Shown here one piece after another: positions 4,412 through 57,950 of a DNA stretch of 64,000 nucleotides. Numbering within the stretch: the stretch's first letter is position 1; each line of letters starts with the position of its first letter. The stretch spans positions 1 to 64,000 of the forward strand of contig NZ_JACIXG010000016.1 in assembly GCF_014360585.1 (NCBI RefSeq). Reading direction: 5' to 3'. The DNA comes from Nocardioides sp. Its GTDB lineage: Bacteria; Actinomycetota; Actinomycetes; Propionibacteriales; Nocardioidaceae. Below the pieces are notes generated by a model. It was not told the DNA's origin. It saw only the letters and a program-made list of their open reading frames with translations, and made no database searches. Position numbers and translations under genes: made by a program.

Positions 4412-5227
4412 TCACCCGTCGGCCGTGTGCGCCATGCTGCGCACCCTCCTGAGCAGGCGGATCGCGCCGCGCGCCGCGGTGACCAGGAGTAGATACCAGA
4501 TCGCGGCCACCACCAGCAGCGGGATGATCAGGTGGTTGCGCTCGTCGAGCGCCTGGACCACTCCCAGCAGGTCGGTGATCGCGAGCACGGAGACCAGGCT
4601 GGTCGCCTGGATCGTCGTCACCAGGACGTCACCGAGCGCGGTGAGCCGGTCACCGCTCGAAAGAGCCCTCGCTGCGTACGCTCCCAGCGCCAGCGCCAAC
4701 CCGACGATCGCCGCGTGGACCGGTGTGACCAGCCGGACCGCGTCGATGTGCACCCCCGGGATCCCGAAGGTGATGTCCGGGAAGACCAGCGCGATGTTGC
4801 TCCACAGCAACAGCTGGACGAGCACCGGGATGCCGCCGAAGACCCAGACGTACGCCGCCGCGATCTCGCGCAGCACCGGGTTGCCCGATCTCTCCATCCT
4901 GCCCACGGCGAGGCCGAGCGCCGACGCCAGTGCGAAGACCAGCACGGTGAGCCGGACGGTGAGCCAGACTCCGCCGAGGACATCGGGATGGAGCAGGTGG
5001 CCGGTGACCTCGCCCGGGAGCAGGTTCTCGTTTCTCATCAGGCTCCACAGGAACCTCAGAAGAAGGAGGGTGAGAAGGACAGCGATCGCCCATTCGACCG
5101 TGTTGGTCTCGACACGCCTCCGCCTAGCGGCTCCGGCGGCTCGACCAGCGCTCCCGTCGGTCGAGCCGCGAGCGCTAGCGAGCGTGTCGAGACCAACACA
5201 GTCGTCGTCGGCAGCGGTCTCGGTCAT
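4412..5227 (-). CDS. Amino-acid-type ABC transporter permease with a repeat-encoded N-terminus
   Basis: Several TM segments; residues ~10-43 are encoded by the dispersed repeat at 5100-5199. Confidence 0.65.
   Translation of the reverse strand: MTETAADDDCVGLDTLASARGSTDGSAGRAAGAARRRRVETNTVEWAIAVLLTLLLLRFLWSLMRNENLLPGEVTGHLLHPDVLGGVWLTVRLTVLVFALASALGLAVGRMERSGNPVLREIAAAYVWVFGGIPVLVQLLLWSNIALVFPDITFGIPGVHIDAVRLVTPVHAAIVGLALALGAYAARALSSGDRLTALGDVLVTTIQATSLVSVLAITDLLGVVQALDERNHLIIPLLVVAAIWYLLLVTAARGAIRLLRRVRSMAHTADG
5100..5199. repeat. Dispersed inverted-repeat element (family 1), copy A
   Basis: GTGTTGGTCTCGACACGC...CGGCTCGACC / GGTCGAGCCG...GCGTGTCGAGACCAACAC. Confidence 0.85.
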
Positions 5228-12058: not shown

Positions 12059-12086
12059 TCGAGCCAGCCGCCGACCGGACCATCCG

Positions 12087-12203
12087 CTGGTCGAGCCGCG
12101 AGGCCGCCTGCGGCCGAGCGTGTCGAGACCAACACGGACCCTTCGGCGCTCGAATCGGCTGTGTTGGTCTCGACACGCTCGCTGGCGCTCGCGGCTCGAC
12201 CAG
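12087..12203. repeat. Dispersed inverted-repeat element (family 1), copy B
   Basis: CTGGTCGAGCCGCG...GTGTCGAGACCAACAC and its inverse, between convergent genes. Confidence 0.85.
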
Positions 12204-12268
12204 CGGCTGCGAAAACGAGAGTCGGCGCCCCGCGTGATGCGGGACGCCGACTCTCGTGATTCAGTCGA

Positions 12269-15328: not shown

Positions 15329-16507
15329 ATGGATCTCGACGCCTTCTCCTGGTTGCTGACCGATGAAGGCCAGCAGCTGCTGGCGCGGGCCACCGAGATG
15401 ACGGCGGCCTCAATCGAGGGAAAGGGTTCGGCCTTGGCTGTGCAGGCCGCACTGCGCAAGGACGAGACTGCCGAGCACGTGACCGCGGCCATGAATCAGG
15501 TGGACCTGCGCCGGAAGGCGGCCGCCAAGTTCGGTGACCTGGCGCCGAAGATGTACTTCACTCCCGACGGCCTCGAACAGGCCACCCGTCTCGCCGTCGC
15601 CCACCACCGGGCCGCGCGCCTGCGCGCTTTCGACGCAGCGAGCGTCATCGACCTGGGCTGTGGGATCGGCGGTGACCTGATCGCCTCCTCCCGCGCCGGC
15701 CTCACTGCTGCCGGGGTCGATCACGATCCGGAACGGGTCGCCATCGCCCAGGCCAACCTGGACGCCCTGGGGCTGCCCGGAGCCGTCACCGTCGCAGACG
15801 CGACGACCGTCGACCATTCACCGTTCGAAGTGGCGTACGCCGATCCGGCACGTCGCGGCGCCAAGGGCCGAGTCTTCTCCGCTGAGGGGTGGACGCCGCC
15901 GTGGTCGTGGGTCGAGACGCTCTTCGCGCGCGATGCGTGCGTGAAGGTCGCGCCTGGGATCCCGCACGATCTCGTGCCCGAGAAGGTCGAGGCCGAATGG
16001 GTCAGCGACCGCGGCGAGGTCAAGGAGGCCGCGCTGTGGTCGGGCTCGCTGGCCAGCACGCAGCGCCGGGCCACCGTGATCGGCGAGCGTGGTCTGGCGA
16101 CGCTCACGTCCGAGGACGACCCGGGCGGTGAGGTCGGTCCCGTCGCCGAGTTCCTCTACGAGCCCGACGGAGCGGTCATCCGCGCCGGGCTGGTCACCGC
16201 AGTCGCTGCTGGGGTGCAGGGTCACCTGGTCGACGAGCACATCGCGTACGTCACTTCCTCGGCGTCCTTCGAGACGCCGTTCGCCCGCGGATATCAGGTT
16301 CTCGAGGAGCTCCCTTATCGGGAGAAGCAGCTCAAGGCGGCGCTGCGCGAGCGCGGGATCGGGAGGCTGACGATCAAGAAGCGCGGCGTGCAGGTCGTAC
16401 CCGAGCAGCTCCGCAAGCGACTCGCGCTCTCCGGGTCCGGGGAGGCCACGATCGTGCTGACCCGGGTTGCGGGTGAAGGGACTTGTCTGTTGGTAAGGCC
16501 GTTCTGA
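15329..16507 (+). CDS. SAM-dependent methyltransferase, THUMP-like
   Basis: VIDLGCGIGGDLIASSRAG motif I, DPARRG motif. Confidence 0.8.
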   Translation: MDLDAFSWLLTDEGQQLLARATEMTAASIEGKGSALAVQAALRKDETAEHVTAAMNQVDLRRKAAAKFGDLAPKMYFTPDGLEQATRLAVAHHRAARLRAFDAASVIDLGCGIGGDLIASSRAGLTAAGVDHDPERVAIAQANLDALGLPGAVTVADATTVDHSPFEVAYADPARRGAKGRVFSAEGWTPPWSWVETLFARDACVKVAPGIPHDLVPEKVEAEWVSDRGEVKEAALWSGSLASTQRRATVIGERGLATLTSEDDPGGEVGPVAEFLYEPDGAVIRAGLVTAVAAGVQGHLVDEHIAYVTSSASFETPFARGYQVLEELPYREKQLKAALRERGIGRLTIKKRGVQVVPEQLRKRLALSGSGEATIVLTRVAGEGTCLLVRPF

Positions 16508-16521
16508 GGGGGTCTCGACAA

Positions 16522-16673
16522 GCTCGACCACCGGAATGCGGCTCGACCACCGGAATGCGGCTCGACCACCGGAATGCGGCTCGACCACCGGAATGCGGCT
16601 CGACCACCGGAATGCGGCTCGACCAGCGGAGGGCGGCTCGACCAGCGGAGGGCGGCTCGACCAGCGGAGGGCG
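16522..16673. repeat. Tandem array of 8 x 19 bp
   Basis: 5 x GCTCGACCACCGGAATGCG followed by 3 x GCTCGACCAGCGGAGGGCG. Confidence 0.95.
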
Positions 16674-16675
16674 GG

Positions 16676-17737
16676 TCAGGCCAGGACGCTGGTGATGGGC
16701 TGGGAGGAGTCGGCGGGGAGGTCCAGGGCCGAGGGGGTGCGGCCCCTTGCGACCATCTCGGAGCCCAGGGCCGCGACCATCGCGCCGTTGTCCGTGCACA
16801 GGCCGGGGCGCGGGACCCGGACCCGGATGCCGAGCTTGGTGGCGCGTTCCTCGGCGAGGACCCGGAGTCGGCTGTTCGCCGCGACCCCGCCACCGATGAT
16901 GATGTCCTCGATGCCTTCGGAGGAGGCTGCGTCGAGGGCCTTCCTGACCAGGACGTCGACCACGGCCTCCTGGAAGCTGGCGGCCACGTCGGCGACCGGC
17001 ACCGGCTCGCCGCTGCGCTCCTTGGCCTCGATCCAGCGGGCGACCGCGGTCTTGAGGCCGGAGAAGGAGAAGTCGAAGCGGTGTCGCTCCAGGTCGCGGC
17101 GGGCGGTGAGCCCGCGCGGGAAGTCGATCGCGATCGAGCTGCCCGAGGTGGCGGTCCTGTCGATCATCGGGCCACCAGGGAAGCCGAGGCCGAGCAGACG
17201 GGCGACCTTGTCGAAAGCCTCGCCCGCGGCGTCGTCGATGGTCGCCCCCATCGGGTCGACGCCCACGGTGATGTCGGTGACCTTGAGCAGGCTGGAGTGG
17301 CCGCCAGAGACGAGCATGGCGACGCAGGGCTCGGGAAGCGGTCCGTGCTGCAGCTGGTCGACCGCGACGTGTGACGCCAGGTGGTTGACCCCGTAGATCG
17401 GCTTGTCGAGGCCGAGCGCGAGCGCTTTGGCCGCCGCCACCCCGACCAGCAGGGCACCGGCGAGCCCGGGCCCCGAGGTGACGGCGATCGCGTCCACGTC
17501 ATGGAGCTTGATGCCCGACTCCTGACAGGCACGCTCGATCGTCGGCACCATCGCCTCCAGGTGCGCCCGGCTCGCCACCTCGGGCACGACCCCACCGAAC
17601 CGGGCATGCTCCTCGACGCTGCTCGCCACCGCGTCGGCCAGCAGCGTGTGACCACGCACCACCCCGATCCCGGTCTCGTCGCACGACGTCTCGATCCCGA
17701 GGACCAAGGGCTCATCAACGAGGGCGCCAGAAGTCAT
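16676..17737 (-). CDS. tsaD: tRNA N6-adenosine threonylcarbamoyltransferase
   Basis: [35 protein letters not shown] motifs; start set at MTSGAL. Confidence 0.95.
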
Positions 17738-19176: not shown

Positions 19177-19934
19177 CTGGAGATCACCGGCTTCTGGGTC
19201 TCCGGTGGTCGAGCCTGTCGAGACCCCTTCTTCTCGGACTCCGGTGGTCGAGCCTGTCGAGACCCCTTCTTCTGGCCCTTCTTCTGGGCAGCCTGATCCA
19301 CCGCATCGGGCCGCCGCAGGTAGAGCGGCTCGGGATCCATCAGCTCGACCCGCTCCTCGGCCACCGCCCGTGCCAGCCAACCCGCGGACGGACGCACCGG
19401 ACCGATCGGCGAGGGGAACACGTCCGGATAGAGAAGCGCTCCCTCTCCGACCACCGGCATCGAGGTGACGACCTCGGCCGGCCTGACTACGACAGGACCT
19501 TCGAGCCGGGCGCCGTCAGGGTCGTAGGAGGCCAGGTAGACCTCCTTGCGCCGCGCATCCGTCGCCACCAAGAACCCGCCCCCGCCGGTGGTCGAGCTTG
19601 TCGAGACCACCCCAGACGACACCGCCTCCACCGCCAGCACGTCCAAGCTGCAGGCCGCATAGACCGGAATCTCCAGCACGAACCCGAGGGTCCGTGCCGT
19701 GACCAGCCCGACCCGCAACCCGGTGAACGGCCCAGGTCCGGCGCCGACGGCGATGGCGGTCAGATCCTGGCGTACGACCCCCGCCGCCGTCATGACCTCG
19801 GAGATCAGCGGCGCGAGCTGCTCACCATGCTTCATGGCACGGTCAGAGACCATCTCGGCGACGACGTCGTCGCCGTCGTGGAGCGCCACGGTCACCTGAG
19901 GCGTGGCGGTGTCAAAAGCGAGAAGCACACCCAC
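19173..19934 (-). CDS. tsaB: TsaB, with a repeat-derived linker and C-terminus
   Basis: LLAFDTATPQVTVAL, GAGPGPFTGLRVGL; C-terminus GSRQARPPESEKKGSRQARPPE. Confidence 0.9.
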   Translation of the reverse strand: MGVLLAFDTATPQVTVALHDGDDVVAEMVSDRAMKHGEQLAPLISEVMTAAGVVRQDLTAIAVGAGPGPFTGLRVGLVTARTLGFVLEIPVYAACSLDVLAVEAVSSGVVSTSSTTGGGGFLVATDARRKEVYLASYDPDGARLEGPVVVRPAEVVTSMPVVGEGALLYPDVFPSPIGPVRPSAGWLARAVAEERVELMDPEPLYLRRPDAVDQAAQKKGQKKGSRQARPPESEKKGSRQARPPETQKPVISR

Positions 19935-19937
19935 AGC

Positions 19938-20897
19938 CTAGAGCGCGCCGAGGTCCACACCACGCCAGCGGGCCCCCACCGGCACGATCTCCACCCGCCG
20001 CGGATCCGCCCCGTCGGGCGCCTCGACCAGATCGAGCGGAGCCTCGTCGGCCTCGGCGCGCACGATCCGGAGCTCGAGTCGGGACTCGGAGAGCCCTTCG
20101 GCGAGACCCTCGCCCCACTCCACGACCGTGACCGCATCGTCGAGATCGGTGTCCAGGTCGAGGTCGTCGAGCTCTTCGATCCCACCGAGCCGATAGGCGT
20201 CGACGTGGACGAGCTCCGGCCCGTCGACGGTCGAGGGATGCACGCGGGCGATCACGAAGGTCGGCGAGGTGACCTCGCCACGTACGCCGAGCCCGGCCCC
20301 TAGGCCCTTGGTGAAGGTGGTCTTCCCCGCACCGAGGCCTCCGGAGAGGACGAGCACGTCCCCCGCCGCGACCAGCGCGGCCACTCGCCGGCCCAGCTCG
20401 AACATCGCCTCGGCATCGAGCGCCTCGACGACATGCTCGTTCAGCGGGCGACGGAGCCGCACCTCCGGCAATATTCGGGAATCCTCACGACCTCGCTCGC
20501 GCCTGAAACCCTGCCGCTCCCAGAACCGCAGCGTCTCCGGGAGCTCCTCACGAGCGATCACCGCAAGGTCGTCGAAACCTTCCGCCCGCGCGAGCCCGGC
20601 GGCGTACGTGACCATCTTGTGTGCCACTCCATGACCCTGCTGATCAGGAAGAACAGCAAAACGACGCAGCCACAGCGTCGAGTCCGCGGGGTCCATGAGC
20701 ACGGCCCCGACAGCGACGCCGTCCAGCCGCGCCAGCACGCCGCCGAACCCGGCGAGGCGCTCCTTCATCGAACTCTCGGTCTCCCCGAGCGCTGCAGCCG
20801 GCGGATCCAACGGTGGACGGGCGGAGAAGGCGACGCGGACGATACCGAGCACCTCGGCCGCGGCCTCAGACCCGACCCGCTCGAAGCCGAGCGTCAT
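19938..20897 (-). CDS. tsaE: GNAT acetyltransferase-TsaE fusion
   Basis: N-terminal GNAT; C-terminal GGLGAGKTTFTKGLGAGLGV, SPTFVI, HVDAYRL. Confidence 0.9.
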   Translation of the reverse strand: MTLGFERVGSEAAAEVLGIVRVAFSARPPLDPPAAALGETESSMKERLAGFGGVLARLDGVAVGAVLMDPADSTLWLRRFAVLPDQQGHGVAHKMVTYAAGLARAEGFDDLAVIAREELPETLRFWERQGFRRERGREDSRILPEVRLRRPLNEHVVEALDAEAMFELGRRVAALVAAGDVLVLSGGLGAGKTTFTKGLGAGLGVRGEVTSPTFVIARVHPSTVDGPELVHVDAYRLGGIEELDDLDLDTDLDDAVTVVEWGEGLAEGLSESRLELRIVRAEADEAPLDLVEAPDGADPRRVEIVPVGARWRGVDLGAL

Positions 20898-21982
20898 GCC
20901 GAAGCCGCATCCCGGGTCGCCGAGGCGAGCAGCTGGTCGAGCTCGGCGTTGACCTGACCGTGCCGCTCGAGGATGACCATGTGTCCGGCCTTCTCACACT
21001 CGACCAGTCGCGATCCGGGAATGTAGGAGTGCAGCTTGCGGCTGTGGCCGATCCCGGTGAGCCGGTCCGCGGTGCCGCAGATGATCGTGGTCGGCACCCG
21101 CCCCATCGAGGCGACGCTCGAGAACTTGTCCAGCGCTCGGAAGCTCGGGAAGAACTCCGCGACGACCTCGAACGGAGTCTGCGAGAGCAGCCCGTCGACG
21201 AACTGGACGTACGCCTCGGGCACCTCGTCCCCGAAGGCGAACACGTCGGTGAACACGGTCGCCACCGAGGCTCCCATCGCACGGAACCGGTCGACGATCC
21301 CGTGCCCCTTCGCGAGCGTCCTGATGGTGCGGTTGGCGATCCCGCCGGACAGCTTGGCCGGGAGCACCGGGATCAGCAGTCGGCTCGGGTCGAGGCCACC
21401 CGCGGTCGTCGAGATCAGGGCGACGCCGATGATCCGGCCACCCTCGTCGTAGGGCGCGAACAGCTCAGGGTGGTCCTCGGCGAGCGAGGCGATGGTCATC
21501 CCACCCATCGAGTGGCCGACCAGGATCACCGGACCCTCCGGCACCACCGCGTCCAGGACCCGGAGCAGATCGTCACCGAGCTGGTCGATGGTGGCGTTGC
21601 CGAGCGAGGACCGGCCGCTGCGACCGTGGCTGCGCTGGTCGTAGAAGACCGACCGCACCAGGCCTCGGTACGCGGCCCGCTGGAAGTGCCAGCAGTCGAG
21701 ATTGAGGCAGTAGCCGTGCACGAAGACGAGCGTCACCTCGCTCGATCCGCCGTTGTGAGCCGGGTCGACCTCGTCGATCTCGACATGAAGGGGTACGCCG
21801 TCCTCGGTCACCACGGTGACCGGACACGACCGCAGCGTGCCGAGCGGAGTCCGGTCGATGGGGCGATCCTCGATCGCGCGACGGCGCTTCTTGACCACCA
21901 CCGCGCCGCGCGCGGCGGCAGCGACCGCCGCCGCTCCCAACGTCCCTGCCGCGATCTGGCCGACTCGTGTTGCGATGCTCAT
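20894..21982 (-). CDS. Alpha/beta hydrolase
   Basis: VFVHGYCLN, GHSMGG nucleophile elbow. Confidence 0.85.
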   Translation of the reverse strand: MSIATRVGQIAAGTLGAAAVAAAARGAVVVKKRRRAIEDRPIDRTPLGTLRSCPVTVVTEDGVPLHVEIDEVDPAHNGGSSEVTLVFVHGYCLNLDCWHFQRAAYRGLVRSVFYDQRSHGRSGRSSLGNATIDQLGDDLLRVLDAVVPEGPVILVGHSMGGMTIASLAEDHPELFAPYDEGGRIIGVALISTTAGGLDPSRLLIPVLPAKLSGGIANRTIRTLAKGHGIVDRFRAMGASVATVFTDVFAFGDEVPEAYVQFVDGLLSQTPFEVVAEFFPSFRALDKFSSVASMGRVPTTIICGTADRLTGIGHSRKLHSYIPGSRLVECEKAGHMVILERHGQVNAELDQLLASATRDAASA

Positions 21983-23178
21983 CGGGCAACTCCCTGCTCG
22001 GTGGGGCTGTCAGTGTCCTGGTCGCTGTCGACATAACGCCGTTTCATCCGACCTCCGATCCTGGTGACGACCTCGTAGGCGATGGTCTCGCTCGCCTCGG
22101 CCCAGTCCTGGGCGGTCGGCTCGCCGTCGGCGCCGGTCCCCCACAGAACCACCTCGGCACCCGGCTCGACCGAGGTGTCGCCGAGGTCGACCACGATCTG
22201 ATCCATGCAGACGGTGCCGCGCACCGGCCGCCGCGCCCCACCGACCCACACCGACGCGCGGTTTCCGGCCCGGCGCTGGATCCCTTCGGCGTAGCCGACC
22301 GGGATCAGCCCCACTGTCGTCGGCTGCTCGGCCACCCACGTGTGGTTGTAGGAGACGCCCGCGCCGGCTTCGATCTGCTTGACCAGCGCGAGCTCGGCCC
22401 GCACGGTCATCGCGGGGATCAGCCCGAGCTCCGCCCAGGGCGATCCGTCGACACCCGGCGCCGGATCGATGCCGTACGTCGCGACCCCGACCCGGACCAG
22501 GTCGAGCCGCGCGCTGGGGCGAAGCAGAGCTCCCGCGGAGTTGGCGAGGTGGCGTACCTCAGGCCGCAGGCCCGCCTGCTCCGCGATCGCGACCGCCTCA
22601 CCGAAGACCTTCTCCTGGAGCGCGCTGGCCGGGTCCGCGGGATTCTCTCCTGCGCTGAAGTGCGACCAGATCCCGGTGATGCGGATAGCTCCCTCGGCCT
22701 CGAGGATGCGTGCCAGCGCGACCAGGTTCGACCAGTCGGCGAACGCCGCGCCGCCCCGGGCGAGCCCGGTGTCGACCTTGAGCTGCACCCGCGGCGTACG
22801 CCCCAGGGCGTCGCCGGCCGCGGCGAACTTCTCCAGGTCGGCGACGGTGTAGGCGGTGACGTCGACGTCCGCCGCCAACAGGTCCTCGGCGGGCTCGCTC
22901 GGCATGATCAGCCACGCCAGCAGTCGGCCCTGGTCGCCGGCCGCGCGCAGCGCGAGCGCCTCGTCGACAGAGGCCACGCCGAGCCAGTCCGCGCCGCCCT
23001 CACGGGCGGCCCGCCCGGCCTCGACCAGGCCGTGCCCGTAGCCGTCAGCCTTGACCACCGTCATGATCGGCGTACGCAGATACTCCCTCAGCCGCGAGAC
23101 GTTGTGTCGGATCGCAGCGAGGTCGATGACGATCTCGGCTCGCCGAAGCGGAGCCCGAGTCGCTGGGCTCGGTGACAT
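21979..23178 (-). CDS. alr: Alanine racemase
   Basis: AIRHNVSRL, VVKADGYGHG, PVRGTVCMDQIVVDLG. Confidence 0.95.
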   Translation of the reverse strand: MSPSPATRAPLRRAEIVIDLAAIRHNVSRLREYLRTPIMTVVKADGYGHGLVEAGRAAREGGADWLGVASVDEALALRAAGDQGRLLAWLIMPSEPAEDLLAADVDVTAYTVADLEKFAAAGDALGRTPRVQLKVDTGLARGGAAFADWSNLVALARILEAEGAIRITGIWSHFSAGENPADPASALQEKVFGEAVAIAEQAGLRPEVRHLANSAGALLRPSARLDLVRVGVATYGIDPAPGVDGSPWAELGLIPAMTVRAELALVKQIEAGAGVSYNHTWVAEQPTTVGLIPVGYAEGIQRRAGNRASVWVGGARRPVRGTVCMDQIVVDLGDTSVEPGAEVVLWGTGADGEPTAQDWAEASETIAYEVVTRIGGRMKRRYVDSDQDTDSPTEQGVAR

Positions 23179-23207
23179 GGTGTCAAGGGTAGTTCCTGCG
23201 CAGTGCT

Positions 23208-24713
23208 CTACCGGGAAGGGGGCGAGAGGGACCGGATGACGGCGGGTATCGCAGCGGCGACCCCGCTCGCCGTGACCGGTCCACCGTCGCTCGCCAGCGT
23301 CGCTGCCGCGCCGTGCAGCCAGGCGCCCGCCGACGCCGCGTCGATGGGGGCGAGACCGGCAGCGAGCAGCGAACCGATCAGCCCGCCGAGCACGTCCCCG
23401 GATCCGGCGGTGGCCAGCCAGGAGGTCCCGGTCGTGTTGACCCGTACCGGCGTGTCAGGGTCCGGCGACGCGATCGTGGTGCGCCGCCCCTTGAGCAGCA
23501 CCACGGCGTCGAACCGCTGGGCCGCGAGCCGCGCATAGTGCAGCGGACGAGCCTCGATGTCACCGCGGTCCTCGCGGATCAACGTCGCCAGCTCGCCCGC
23601 GTGCGGCGTCAGGATCGCGGGCACCCCGAGCGGCCCGTTCAACGGACGCAGGCTGTCGGCGTCAATGACCAGAGGTACGCCGCTGGCCCGTGCGAACGCG
23701 AGCGCGCTGTTGGCGCCGTCAGCGCTGCCGGAGCCGACCACCCAGGCCTGCGCCTGGCCGTCGCCGACGACCTCCGGGTGACGGCGCTTGACCCACTCCG
23801 AGGCGGTGCCGACGTAGCGCACCATCCCGGCGAGCCCGGTGTTGGCGCCGGCGACAGCCAGCAGTGCGGCACCGGGATAGGTGGCGCTGCCGACCCGCAG
23901 CCCGACGACCCCGCGGGAGTACTTGTGTCCGTCCGGCGCCGGTCGCGGCACCAGCGCGGCCACGTCGGCCGCCTCGAGGCTCTCGACCACCGGTGTCGGC
24001 AGGTCGAGTCCGATGTCGACCAGCTGCACCGTCCCGCACGCGGAGGCCGTCGGGTCGAGCAGATGACACGGCTTGTACGTGCCGAAGGTGACCGTCAGGT
24101 CCGCGCTCACGTGGGCCCCGTCGATCTCCCCGGTGTCGACGCAGACCCCGCTCGGCGTGTCGACGGCGACCACCGGAACCCCGGCGAGCGCCTCCAGCGC
24201 CTCCTCGGCGTCCGGCCTCAGCCCGGGCTTCCCCCCGATCCCGACGATCCCGTCGACCACGACGTCGACTGTGTTGGTCTCACTGCGCCTGATCTGGCCG
24301 GGTCTCCGCCTAGCGGCTCCGACGGCTCGACCAGCGGTGTGACCGTCGGTCGAGCCGGGTTCGTGAGGTACGAACGAACCCGTGTCGAGACCAACACAGT
24401 GCCCTCCCGCCGCCTTCAGCGCGGCCACCCCACCCGCGTGCGCCCGATCCGACAGCAACCACGCCTCGACCCGCGCCCCGCGACGCGCGAGCAGCGCCCC
24501 GGCGTACAAAGCGTCGCCACCGTTGTTGCCGCTCCCGACGAGCAGGACGACGCGCTTCCCGTAGGCGCCGCCGAGGCCTCGCCCGCGAAGGTGGCTGATG
24601 ACCGCGTATGCCAGCCCGGCAGCCGCACGCTGCATCAGGGCGCCTTCCGGCAGACTCGCCATCAAGGCTTTCTCTGCTGCTCTGACCTGCTCAACCGAGT
24701 GCGCACGCCGCAT
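23208..24713 (-). CDS. nnrD: Bifunctional NAD(P)HX epimerase / dehydratase with an internal repeat insertion
   Basis: Epimerase domain (GSGNNGGDALYAG) and carbohydrate-kinase-like domain (TPHAGE, TAGSGDVLGG); start set at MRRAHSVEQ. Confidence 0.9.
   Translation of the reverse strand: MRRAHSVEQVRAAEKALMASLPEGALMQRAAAGLAYAVISHLRGRGLGGAYGKRVVLLVGSGNNGGDALYAGALLARRGARVEAWLLSDRAHAGGVAALKAAGGHCVGLDTGSFVPHEPGSTDGHTAGRAVGAARRRPGQIRRSETNTVDVVVDGIVGIGGKPGLRPDAEEALEALAGVPVVAVDTPSGVCVDTGEIDGAHVSADLTVTFGTYKPCHLLDPTASACGTVQLVDIGLDLPTPVVESLEAADVAALVPRPAPDGHKYSRGVVGLRVGSATYPGAALLAVAGANTGLAGMVRYVGTASEWVKRRHPEVVGDGQAQAWVVGSGSADGANSALAFARASGVPLVIDADSLRPLNGPLGVPAILTPHAGELATLIREDRGDIEARPLHYARLAAQRFDAVVLLKGRRTTIASPDPDTPVRVNTTGTSWLATAGSGDVLGGLIGSLLAAGLAPIDAASAGAWLHGAAATLASDGGPVTASGVAAAIPAVIRSLSPPSR
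24271..24397. repeat. Dispersed inverted-repeat element (family 1), copy C, inside the nnrD/nnrE CDS
   Basis: GTGTTGGTCTCA...GGCTCGACCAGCGG...GTCGGTCGAGCC...GTGTCGAGACCAACAC. Confidence 0.85.
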
Positions 24714-24819
24714 GGGCCCAACCCTACGCGCCCCGTCCTCGCAGCGTACGGGCCGAAGGGCTCGAACACCCATCCGAAGGGCTCGAACGAACCCATCCGA
24801 AGGGCTCGAACGAACCCAG

Positions 24820-25173
24820 TCAGTTCTCCAGGACGACCATGGCCGAGGCGATCCCGGCATCGTGGGAGAGCGAGAGGTGGACGGTGACCACGCCGAGCTT
24901 CGTGGCCTGCGCCAGCACGGTGCCGCGGAGCTCGAACCGCGGCTGGCCGGACGACTCCGAGATCACCTCGGCGTCGTGCCACTCCATCCCCACCGGCGCG
25001 CCGAGCGCCTTGGCCAGCGCCTCCTTCGCGGCGAACCGGGCGGCCAGCGAGGCCATCGGCTTCGTCGCCTCGGCCGGGGTGAACAGGCGCTCACGCAGCC
25101 GCGGCGTACGCTCCAGCGACTCCTCGAAGCGTCCGAGGTCGCAGACGTCGATCCCGACTCCGAGGACAGCCAT
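24820..25173 (-). CDS. acpS: Holo-ACP synthase
   Basis: [27 protein letters not shown]. Confidence 0.95.
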
Positions 25174-28067: not shown

Positions 28068-28074
28068 TCCCCCC

Positions 28075-28204
28075 GCTGGTCGAGCCGGATTCGTGAGGAA
28101 CGAACGAATCCGTGTCGAGACCAACACGTTCCCATCAGCGCTCGTTCGAGACCGTGTTGGTCTCGACACGCCTTCGCCTAGCGGCTCCGGCGGCTCGACC
28201 AGCG
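28075..28204. repeat. Dispersed inverted-repeat element (family 1), copy D
   Basis: Between convergent coaA and glmM; same terminal motifs. Confidence 0.85.
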
Positions 28205-28211
28205 AGGGAAG

Positions 28212-33917: not shown

Positions 33918-34009
33918 GGGGGACTCCTTGAGAAGAGCCGGCTCACGGACACTCCCGGAGCCTGGCCCGCGGAGCATAGCGAACACCCTCAGGGGTGTGC
34001 GCGCGTTCG

Positions 34010-34079
34010 TGTAACACGTCGTTCGTAGGTCTACTCGCCTTTTATAACGACCGGATAGTCCTACGAACGACGTGTTACA
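34010..34079. repeat. ~72-bp palindromic element (family 2), copy 1
   Basis: 20-bp perfect arms TGTAACACGTCGTTCGTAGG / CCTACGAACGACGTGTTACA. Confidence 0.95.
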
Positions 34080-34133: not shown

Positions 34134-35402
34134 TCAGCCCTCCGGCTGCCACCTCTGGTCGAGTACGAAGTCGACGGCGCGGTCCACCGGGATCGCGCTG
34201 TCGCCGTACACGCTGACGGTGTAGACGGGGCCCTGGAAGACGACGAGGTTCACCGGGTCGGCGGGCTTGCCCATCCAGCGGCGCTTCTTGCCGAGCCCGA
34301 TGAAGACCTCGTTGCCGTCGACGGTGCGGATGATGCAGCTCTTGTAGTCGGCGCGGCGGCACGCCTTGTCCATCTGGATCGGGTTGAGCGTCTCCTCCAG
34401 CCGTACTTCGACAAGGCCCGGTTCCCCGCCGGAGAAGCCGTCAGTGTCCTTCTTGACTTCGGTCAGAGCGACGTACGCCTCATGGTCGAAGCGCGTCGGC
34501 ATGCCGTCGAACCACTTCGCCGGGGTTCCAGGCGGGACCAGCGTCTTCCGTGCGATCCTGCCCAGCTCCTTGGCGTCGACCGCAGGCGGAACATCCAGCT
34601 CCGGGACGACCAGCCGGGGGTCGGCTGCGGCCGCCATGACCTCCTTCTCGCCGAGGTCGACTCCGGAGACGGGGATCGTCGAGTTGTTGCCGAACAGCGA
34701 GTCGAGAGTGATCGCGACGACCGTCCCGTCGGAGCGCTCGACGGCATAGGTGCGTACGCCGTCACGCGTCGCGATTCTCGCCGACTTTGCCCCTGGATGA
34801 TCGACGTCATCACAGGTCCAACCGGGGTCCTCGCACAGGAAGCCGACCCCATCCCAGCCGGACCCGACGGCCAGCTGAACCATCCCCAGACCGTCCTCGC
34901 TTTCGACGGTCCACCCCAGCTTCGTGCCGATGGTGCGCCCGCTGCCGGCCTCGCCGCCCTGCATGTTGGAGACAGTCTTGTCGAGATGCTGCCCGGTGGG
35001 ATCGAGGTGCTCGGCGAGGATGTCTCGATACTCCTGAAGCACCGGGAGGTCGCGAGACCACGAGGCGCCAGGGCCGTTGAAGGCCGCTGGCCACAGAGCC
35101 GTCGCGTCGCCCCCAGGGGTCTTCACCGGCGTGACCACCCGGTCGGGCACCGGCGACGGCTCCGCCGACGTCTCGCCCGACTTCTCCAGCGGACCCGCCG
35201 CCTGCTCGTCGCCCCTCAGCAACGTCGTCTGCTGGGCGACCACGACACCCCCGGCCGCCATGACCGCCACCGCGGCGGCAGCCGCGACGGGCACCGTCCA
35301 CCTCTTCGTACGACTCTCCTGCGAGATCGCCTGCATCAGCTCCGCCTCTCGCCGCGCCTTCACGTGGGGGCGCAGACTGCGTTCAGGAATTCCGGTCATC
35401 AC
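34134..35402 (-). CDS. Membrane-anchored protein encoded with an ECF sigma factor, possible anti-sigma
   Basis: Cytosolic N-terminus, single TM (WTVPVAAAAAVAVMAAGGVVVA); overlaps the sigma gene stop. Confidence 0.55.
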   Translation of the reverse strand: MMTGIPERSLRPHVKARREAELMQAISQESRTKRWTVPVAAAAAVAVMAAGGVVVAQQTTLLRGDEQAAGPLEKSGETSAEPSPVPDRVVTPVKTPGGDATALWPAAFNGPGASWSRDLPVLQEYRDILAEHLDPTGQHLDKTVSNMQGGEAGSGRTIGTKLGWTVESEDGLGMVQLAVGSGWDGVGFLCEDPGWTCDDVDHPGAKSARIATRDGVRTYAVERSDGTVVAITLDSLFGNNSTIPVSGVDLGEKEVMAAAADPRLVVPELDVPPAVDAKELGRIARKTLVPPGTPAKWFDGMPTRFDHEAYVALTEVKKDTDGFSGGEPGLVEVRLEETLNPIQMDKACRRADYKSCIIRTVDGNEVFIGLGKKRRWMGKPADPVNLVVFQGPVYTVSVYGDSAIPVDRAVDFVLDQRWQPEG

Positions 35403-35995
35403 TTCTCCCCTTCACCCATGAGCGCGGCGACCCGCTTGCGTGCGCGGGAGAGCCGGCTGCGTACGGTCCCGACAGGAATGTCGAGTGCCTGGGCAACTTG
35501 CAGATACGAGAGGCCGTCCCAGGCGATGAGCATCAGGATCTGACGGTCCTTGCGGCTGAGCCGGTCGACCGCCGCGAGGAGCTCGGCCATCCGGCGCTCT
35601 TCGTCGAGGCGGCGTACGACTCCGTCCGCATGGTCCTCGGCGTCCTCGAGGCGCACCAGCTGCAGCCTGCCCGCCAGCGCGTTCTGCCGGCGGGCACCAC
35701 GGGTGGCGTTGCGGCAGACGTTCTCGGCGACCGTGTAGAGCCACGGCATCAGCGAGCCGTCGTAGGCGACCGCCCGCTCCCGCACCCGCCAGACCTCCAG
35801 GAACGCCTGGGACATCACGTCCTCGGCGAGGTTCCAGGAAGCCACGCGACGGAAGCAGAAGTTGTAGACCGGGTCCGCATAGCGCCCGAACAGCTCCGCC
35901 ATCGCCTCGTGGTCGCCCCGGCGCAGACGCTCCGCCAGACCGCTGTCGTCTTCGGTCACCACGAGCCCGAAGCTCTGGGACTCACTACCTCTCAC
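35399..35995 (-). CDS. RNA polymerase ECF-type sigma factor
   Basis: Region 2 (LFGRYADPVYNFCFRRVASWNLAEDVMSQAFLEVWR), region 4 (LSYLQVAQALDIPVGTVRSRLSRARKRV); GTG start uncertain. Confidence 0.88.
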   Translation of the reverse strand: MRGSESQSFGLVVTEDDSGLAERLRRGDHEAMAELFGRYADPVYNFCFRRVASWNLAEDVMSQAFLEVWRVRERAVAYDGSLMPWLYTVAENVCRNATRGARRQNALAGRLQLVRLEDAEDHADGVVRRLDEERRMAELLAAVDRLSRKDRQILMLIAWDGLSYLQVAQALDIPVGTVRSRLSRARKRVAALMGEGEK

Positions 35996-36050
35996 GCACC
36001 CTCTATGTCCGGTGCGCCCGGAAAGGTTCCACCTCCGGCCGCACGCACTC

Positions 36051-36122
36051 GTGTAACACGTCGTTCGTAGTACTACTCGCCTTTTATAACGACCGGATAG
36101 TCCTACGAACGACGTGTTACAC
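36051..36122. repeat. ~72-bp palindromic element (family 2), copy 2
   Basis: 20-bp perfect arms GTGTAACACGTCGTTCGTAG / CTACGAACGACGTGTTACAC; two differences from copy 1 in the shared internal sequence. Confidence 0.95.
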
Positions 36123-36131
36123 GCCCCGCAG

Positions 36132-36725
36132 TCACCCCGACCCCAGCAGCTCCAGCAACACCGGCAGCGACCCCGCCAGCACCCCCAACAGCTCCTCGCG
36201 CGACAACCCGGCCGCATCTGCCTTCCACGACAAGACCATCTCCTCCGACATCGCCTGCCAGCCCCTGACGATCAGCCGGGCAGCAGGACTGTCGACGACG
36301 AAGTCGACGTCGGCCTCGAAGATCCGGGTCCCGAGGGCTCCGAAGGCCTCGTCGTAGATCGCGCGGAGGACCGGATCGCTCGCGGCGCCGCGGACCATCG
36401 AGACGTACCCCTCGTAGTTGGCGTCGACGAAGTCCACATACGCGGTCATCGATGCCAGCAGGCGCTCGACCGGCTCCCCGGTCTCGGGCGGCGCGGTCTG
36501 AGCGACGAGGGCCTCGGCGGCACGCCGAACGACCGCCTCACGGAAGGCCATCTTGTCGCCGAAGTAGTGGTAGAGGAGCCCGCGCGAGATGCCGGCCTCG
36601 CGCGCCACCACGTCGATGGAGATCTCGTCGAGGGAGTGGTTCGCGAAGAGGCGCACACCCAGGTCGAGCAGCTGCTCACGACGTTGCTCGGGCGTCAGTC
36701 TCGTCCGTTGGCTCATGCGAACCAT
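36132..36725 (-). CDS. TetR-family regulator
   Basis: RREQLLDLGVRLFANHSLDEISIDVVAREAGISRGLLYHYFGDK. Confidence 0.9.
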   Translation of the reverse strand: MVRMSQRTRLTPEQRREQLLDLGVRLFANHSLDEISIDVVAREAGISRGLLYHYFGDKMAFREAVVRRAAEALVAQTAPPETGEPVERLLASMTAYVDFVDANYEGYVSMVRGAASDPVLRAIYDEAFGALGTRIFEADVDFVVDSPAARLIVRGWQAMSEEMVLSWKADAAGLSREELLGVLAGSLPVLLELLGSG

Positions 36726-43410: not shown

Positions 43411-43498
43411 GTGTTGGTTTCGACACGACGCTCAACCGGCGGTCGCCCGCTGGTTGAGCCGCGAGGCCGTCCACGGCCGAGCGTGTCGAAACCAACAC
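43411..43498. repeat. Dispersed inverted-repeat element (family 1), copy E (variant)
   Basis: GTGTTGGTTTCGACAC...CTCAACC / GGTTGAG...GTGTCGAAACCAACAC. Confidence 0.85.
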
Positions 43499-46686: not shown

Positions 46687-46832
46687 AAACTGCCGAGAAG
46701 TCGCCCCCGCAGGCCGAGACGTCACTCCCGTCGACCGAGGCGTCACTCTCGTCGGCCGAGAGGGCATCTGTGTGCCGTCTCGACCGACCTACCTGACGTC
46801 TCGGCCGACCTACCTGACGTCTCGGCAGGAGG

Positions 46833-57756: not shown

Positions 57757-57922
57757 GGTCGAGACCAACAGAGTCGTCGTTGTCGTGTTCGGCCCCGTCG
57801 GTCGAGCCGCCGGAGCCGCTAGGCGAAGGCGTGTCGAGACCAACACAGTCGTTATGTGGCGACTTCGCCGGTCGAGCCGCCGGAGCCGCTAGGCGGAGGC
57901 GTGTCGAGACCAACAGAGTCGT
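57757..57922. repeat. Dispersed repeat (family 1), copy F: direct units in the ABC operon leader
   Basis: Two near-identical GGTCGAGCCGCCGGAGCCGCTAGGCGRAGGCGTGTCGAGACCAACA units plus a fragment. Confidence 0.85.
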
Positions 57923-57950
57923 TATGTGATGTGGGTTACACCGCACACTT

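Follow-up and report, generated by a model that had tools for sequence, protein, structure and literature searches.

A REP-like palindromic repeat carried in frame within NAD(P)HX epimerase and other proteins of the Nocardioides albus/luteus group

The nnrD/nnrE gene and its in-frame insert

The window analysed here is a stretch of 64,000 nucleotides from the genome of a Nocardioides close to N. albus, the genus being inferred from named relatives with 90% protein identity. Positions 23208-24713 of its minus strand hold the gene nnrD/nnrE for NAD(P)HX epimerase and dehydratase (501 aa), which is identified by the Pfam domains PF03853 (YjeF_N, residues 25-216) and PF01256 (Carb_kinase, residues 274-476) and by the NCBIfam matches yjeF_nterm/cterm, and which is matched in 58 of 59 relatives. 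A tail-outward (LR) dimer of a palindromic repeat lies in frame in this gene at 24267-24401 on the minus strand, its 135 bp supplying the 45 codons from H105 to V149 (HCVGLDT...SETNTV). The encoded peptide, HCVGLDTGSFVPHEPGSTDGHTAGRAVGAARRRPGQIRRSETNTV, stands directly ahead of DVVVDGIVGIGG. The repeat had been placed at 24271-24397 in a first-pass annotation made from the sequence alone; this span is off by no more than a few bases, the exact insert codons being 24267-24401. A motif search finds the right terminal repeat, GTGTCGAGACCAACAC, in exact form at 24382-24397 (+), and the left terminal repeat, TGTGTTGGTCTCACTGCG (24270-24287, +), is diverged and pairs with the right one in the fold. 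The whole copy folds as a stem with three hairpins (z = -6.1).

At the protein level, the AlphaFold model of NnrE has a pLDDT below 50 at residues 110-147, flanked by a helix (residues 93-101) and a strand (residues 151-155). On the strength of this model, which is of only moderate quality overall (mean pLDDT 67.5), the insert is predicted to form a disordered loop.

Filled, empty and altered sites in NnrE orthologues

About 40 NnrE orthologues (29 from a genome search and 13 from a GTDB collection, with some overlap) were compared over the segment cut between the conserved motifs ..AGG and D(V/L)VVDG. This loop has 9-17 residues in most of them (10 in N. halotolerans, for example), against 45 in the window, 46 in N. 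albus JCM 3185 and 40 in Nocardioides sp. YR527, all three of the same repeat family. The earlier claim of an insertion in NnrE is upheld by these lengths, and the objection that orthologues might have native sequence of equal length at this site fails. The insert is not the clean addition of 44 residues that had been supposed; it takes the place of a short native loop whose length varies.

The altered sites take several forms. A decayed form of the repeat makes up a loop of 25 residues in genome G001, and N. luteus and N. turkmenicus lack the insert, their 14-16 residues including a short different palindrome. In G025, another Nocardioides, the loop has 40 residues derived from a different repeat, GTCTCGATACGCC...GGATCGAGACC, which follows the same stem-plus-three-hairpins plan but with a z-score of only -1.9, and in G035 an insert of 19 residues contains a single hairpin-like unit. 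Since the palindromes differ among species, the NnrE loop has accepted palindromes several times. Further unrelated palindromes are seen in the NnrE loop of additional Nocardioides species, at L016 (G014) and L025 (G009) (GGTTTGGTCCCAAACC; GTGTGCCT...AGGCACAC). Among the carriers, dN/dS is 0.08-0.11 outside the insert and 0.56-1.0 inside it, showing purifying selection on the rest of NnrE and relaxed evolution of the insert.

Repeat unit, dimers and fold

One unit of the repeat consists of GGTCGAGC-tip-GTGTCGAGACCAACAC. There are about five tip types, which are interchangeable and in which compensating changes preserve the pairing (for example GGATTCGT..ACGAATCC and GACGTCGT..ACGACGTC). Each element comprises two inverted units with their tails either outward (LR) or inward (RL), and is a REP-like dimer in that an inverted pair of REP units is present. 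Both dimer forms fold as a four-arm cruciform, with z-scores of -6.1 (LR copy in nnrE) and -7.7 (RL copy at 28073-28207). In the LR form the closing arm is the tail arm and in the RL form the head arm, and the two are therefore circular permutations of one structure. The tetranucleotide ahead of the stem is CGTC in 31 and CGCT in 85 of 143 units; no GTAG tag was seen in the Nocardioides units. The element ends show only an inverted (C)GAC/GTC(G) extension. No consistent target-site duplication, the mark of a MITE of a DDE transposon, emerged from ten comparisons of filled and empty sites, in which the border often shows a difference of a few native codons, and no Rfam family was matched at the gathering threshold within the window.

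Copies in the window and their gene context

Motif and context searches place RL dimers between convergent genes at 12085-12211 and 28073-28207. An LR dimer at 43411-43498 has coding sequence on either side, on one strand but in different frames, and two tandem single units of the family (57793-57928) lie outside clear coding frames.

The context of the copies was scored with a codon model, without a gene caller, over about 0.89 Mb of the 5.36-Mb genome, largely chosen around copies. Convergent genes border 19 of the 42 RL dimers with enough flanking sequence, and divergent genes border none; as a background, the ratio of convergent to divergent strand switches in this DNA is 120:124. The same coding frame continues on both sides of 9 of 15 LR dimers versus 10 of 42 RL dimers (Fisher p = 0.02). 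Furthermore, the end-to-end distances of LR copies within genes are nearly all divisible by three.

Other repeats are present in the window as well. A tandem array of a 19-bp unit, GGCTCGACCACCGGAATGC, occupies 16503-16692 and has the GGCTCGACC head in common with the repeat family; short palindromes, GGTGGTCGAGCCTGTCGAGACC, at 19191-19268 and 19574-19612 probably represent a shorter form within the same superfamily. Two 81-nt palindromic copies (33999-34079 and 36041-36123) with a TTTTATAA centre are 94% alike and also inverted partners; they flank an ECF-type sigma factor gene and its neighbour (34134-36217, -) and are unrelated to the repeat family. An imperfect 54-nt inverted repeat with GCCGAGACGTCACTC-type units is found at 46713-46826.

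The permease copy

A second in-frame copy in the window, copy A, lies in the gene for an amino-acid ABC permease (4412-5227, -; 271 aa, TIGR01726). It follows residue 9 of the permease at 5096-5200 (-) and contributes 35 codons (CVGLDT...VETNTV), giving the peptide CVGLDTLASARGSTDGSAGRAAGAARRRRVETNTV. Both G001, with a diverged insert, and G015 (the same contig as N. turkmenicus L040), with only RVETNA left, keep the permease start and its opening residues, MTETAADDD; the permease of G011 (the same contig as N. luteus BAFB L043) has no insert and carries unrelated sequence at the site. Because the start is upstream of the repeat and conserved, the repeat lies within the coding sequence, and the possibility that the true start excludes it can be dismissed, given that the start is kept in relatives with and without the repeat. 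To judge from the RVETNA remnant, the permease repeat is shortened in frame in one species. Conceptual translation bears out the first-pass annotation in that the nnrE copy and copy A are read in the same frame of the repeat and share a peptide. The stop-free frame is likewise real: in the orientation of the gene, two of the three frames are open through both copies, and the third has stops.

Other host proteins

In-frame copies also occur in ThiO, CobB (cobyrinate diamide synthase; two repeats), a dehydrogenase E2 (two), a YyaL-like DUF255 protein, PxpB-PxpC, CobL, a chelatase-like AAA/VWA protein, an HsaD-like hydrolase, an AMP-ligase, an acyl-CoA dehydrogenase and a UvrD/RecB-like helicase. 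The host families are backed by Pfam, and the finer gene names are our own reading. The genome thus has at least a dozen hosts with an in-frame repeat, for most of which close relatives show an empty or altered site, and the presence of the same peptide in the same frame in many other proteins refutes the objection that no others carry the repeat. The insert is missing from all three relatives compared in the YyaL-like protein, the HsaD-like hydrolase, the AMP-ligase and the acyl-CoA dehydrogenase. It is common to the window genome and G015 in ThiO and PxpBC, and to the window genome and G001 in CobL; in CobB, G001 has a different insert. In the UvrD-like helicase it is found in all four species compared, with the frame kept and with tips that vary by species. 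These swaps suggest, by inference, that tips are exchanged between copies by gene conversion. The inserts lie between Pfam domains in E2, CobB and PxpBC, and inside a single domain in ThiO, the AMP-ligase and NnrE, where the domain match runs through. On contig C133 of G000 (20183-24963; L114), CobL, the chelatase-like protein and CobB are encoded by adjacent genes of a cobalamin cluster, each with an in-frame insert.

Reading frame of the in-frame copies

The frame of each copy was called by coding potential alone, ignoring the peptide. Thirteen in-frame copies were obtained, 11 in the VGLDT/VETNTV frame, two in the VLVST/VSRPT frame and none in the third; a fourteenth call was left out as a chance motif match. 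The fraction of units open in both directions is 0.90 for the VGLDT/VETNT frame and 0.43 and 0.52 for the other frames. Openness to stop codons predicts 49% use of the VGLDT frame, compared to the 11 of 13 observed (p = 0.009), which speaks against stop codons as the sole cause of frame choice, with the reservation that the number of calls is small and some of them are not independent. The bias in insertion frame for which a survey had been proposed is thus seen as a preference, partly explained by stops in the other two frames.

Abundance, distribution and mobilization

A 171-bp query representing the nnrE copy has 56 matches in its own genome, and the 15-mer end motif TGTCGAGACCAACAC, with at most one mismatch, has 250 sites there versus none for the reversed control, so the repeat is not a product of chance. 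The same motif counts 118 in G015, 53 in G001 and 12 in G011; other Nocardioidaceae sampled mostly have 0-2 and at most 5. Copy number is underestimated, because contigs C1, C41, C57, C61, C92, C133 and C139 break within or next to the repeat. A related motif, GTCTCGATACGCTCGC, is also repeated among several other Nocardioides and within one additional family, and from this resemblance the repeat family seems to be a local offshoot of a palindrome that is more widespread among actinobacteria.

A search for PF01797 (Y1_Tnp) returned no matches in the 98.7%-complete genome, while five control genomes were positive, which speaks against a RAYT as the mobilizing enzyme. In the stretches read, which were not searched systematically, no transposase was seen between a pair of the same ends.

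Comparison with known palindromic elements

Protein-coding palindromic repeats have been described in Rickettsia (RPE; Ogata et al. 2000, 2002, reviewed in PMC10969869) and Wolbachia (WPE; Ogata et al. 2005, cited in PMC4224334). These resemble the Nocardioides element in being palindromic repeats of about 100-150 bp that lie in frame in many unrelated genes and encode a recurrent peptide without inactivating the host gene. The differences are that RPE and WPE reside in obligate intracellular alphaproteobacteria, whereas the Nocardioides element resides in a free-living high-GC actinobacterium and has two units, interchangeable tips, a four-arm fold and abundant intergenic copies at gene 3' ends. 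Of the marks of such elements, an in-frame palindrome without a stop, orthologues lacking it and several unrelated hosts are all present, and translation of the insert is inferred. The comparison with Rickettsia made at first pass stands as a likeness of kind; membership of the RPE families is not claimed, as the lineage is different and the sequences were not compared.

Intragenic REP dimers of the GTAG and CGTC superfamilies are known from other bacteria (PMC3733652), in a text that names neither Actinobacteria nor Nocardioides. They share with the Nocardioides element both kinds of inverted dimer, a preference for convergent and co-directional gaps, and dimers wholly within ORFs of known proteins, including a UvrD/Rep helicase. 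However, the Nocardioides element has no GTAG tag, and only 31 of its 143 units have CGTC. REPINs, which are mobilized by RAYTs (PMC3116915), are likewise inverted REP doublets, non-autonomous, with hundreds of end motifs, but the Nocardioides genome is without a Y1_Tnp (PF01797) domain. Taken together, the element works like RPE/WPE and REP elements, yet it is no member of the families tested. No report of such a repeat in Nocardioides was found in the literature searched, the coverage of which is incomplete.

Origin and tolerance of the inserts

The observations are best read as an in-frame REP-type mobile repeat of the N. albus/luteus group that is tolerated as disordered protein loops, a reading to which we assign a probability of about 0.86. 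Insertion, in-frame continuity, empty sites, and purifying selection outside the insert with relaxed evolution inside it are observed. Inference alone, without transcript or protein data, supports translation of the inserts, their movement in trans by an enzyme not yet identified, and selection against out-of-frame or damaging insertions. The repeat would be non-autonomous and moved in trans by that enzyme. Tail-inward dimers would persist at gene 3' ends, and tail-outward dimers are mostly located within genes. Since folding is little disturbed, copies landing in frame and free of stops would be retained in linkers and surface loops, where they form disordered hydrophilic loops (VGLDT..GSTDG..VETNTV), and out-of-frame or damaging insertions would be purged by selection.

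That the hosts are pseudogenes or misannotated, and that the in-frame state arises by chance among many open frames of GC-rich DNA, is scarcely credible. Such DNA does yield many long spurious ORFs, and some profile matches contain stops or fall in non-coding frames, but the dN/dS of 0.08-0.11 in NnrE outside the insert, the intact Pfam domains on both sides and the frame kept across species in NnrE, ThiO, PxpBC, CobL and the helicase all contradict it. The very stable closed fold, whose terminal stem joins the insertion borders, would suit a splicing-like removal of the inserts from RNA or protein that leaves a mature protein of normal length. An open frame and lengths mostly divisible by three would be needless if the insert were cut from RNA, and neither an Rfam family match nor an intein-like or intron-encoded protein is found at the site, which offers only 45 residues; we regard removal as very improbable.

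The inserts might instead be selected features, the loops or mRNA hairpins regulating the host protein or its expression. Some inserts are common to several species (four of four compared for the helicase), and the palindromes taken up by the same NnrE loop vary with the species, the one in G025 having the same architecture. This remains improbable in view of the insert dN/dS of 0.56-1.0, the absence of most inserts from close relatives and the functional diversity of the hosts. Beyond tolerance of an in-frame mobile repeat lies a more far-reaching and speculative possibility, which is conceivable but doubtful: a loop-generating system in which a tip-swapping repeat with a frame open in nearly every tip type repeatedly enters and reshuffles within coding sequence and supplies disordered loops to core enzymes, its LR and RL forms being circular permutations. 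If true, this permutation would suggest an intermediate that is circular or single-stranded, together with an undescribed mobilizing enzyme.

Implications

The repeat adds an actinobacterial variant to the protein-coding palindromic elements, with the reservation that translation has not been shown. Until now, in-frame palindromic elements have been regarded chiefly as a trait of Rickettsia and Wolbachia, apart from scattered REP cases elsewhere. Gene models and structure predictions of the host proteins contain loops derived from the repeat, which calls for caution in their use. N. albus and its relatives offer a cultivable setting for the questions of whether the inserts are translated, how they are tolerated and what mobilizes them.
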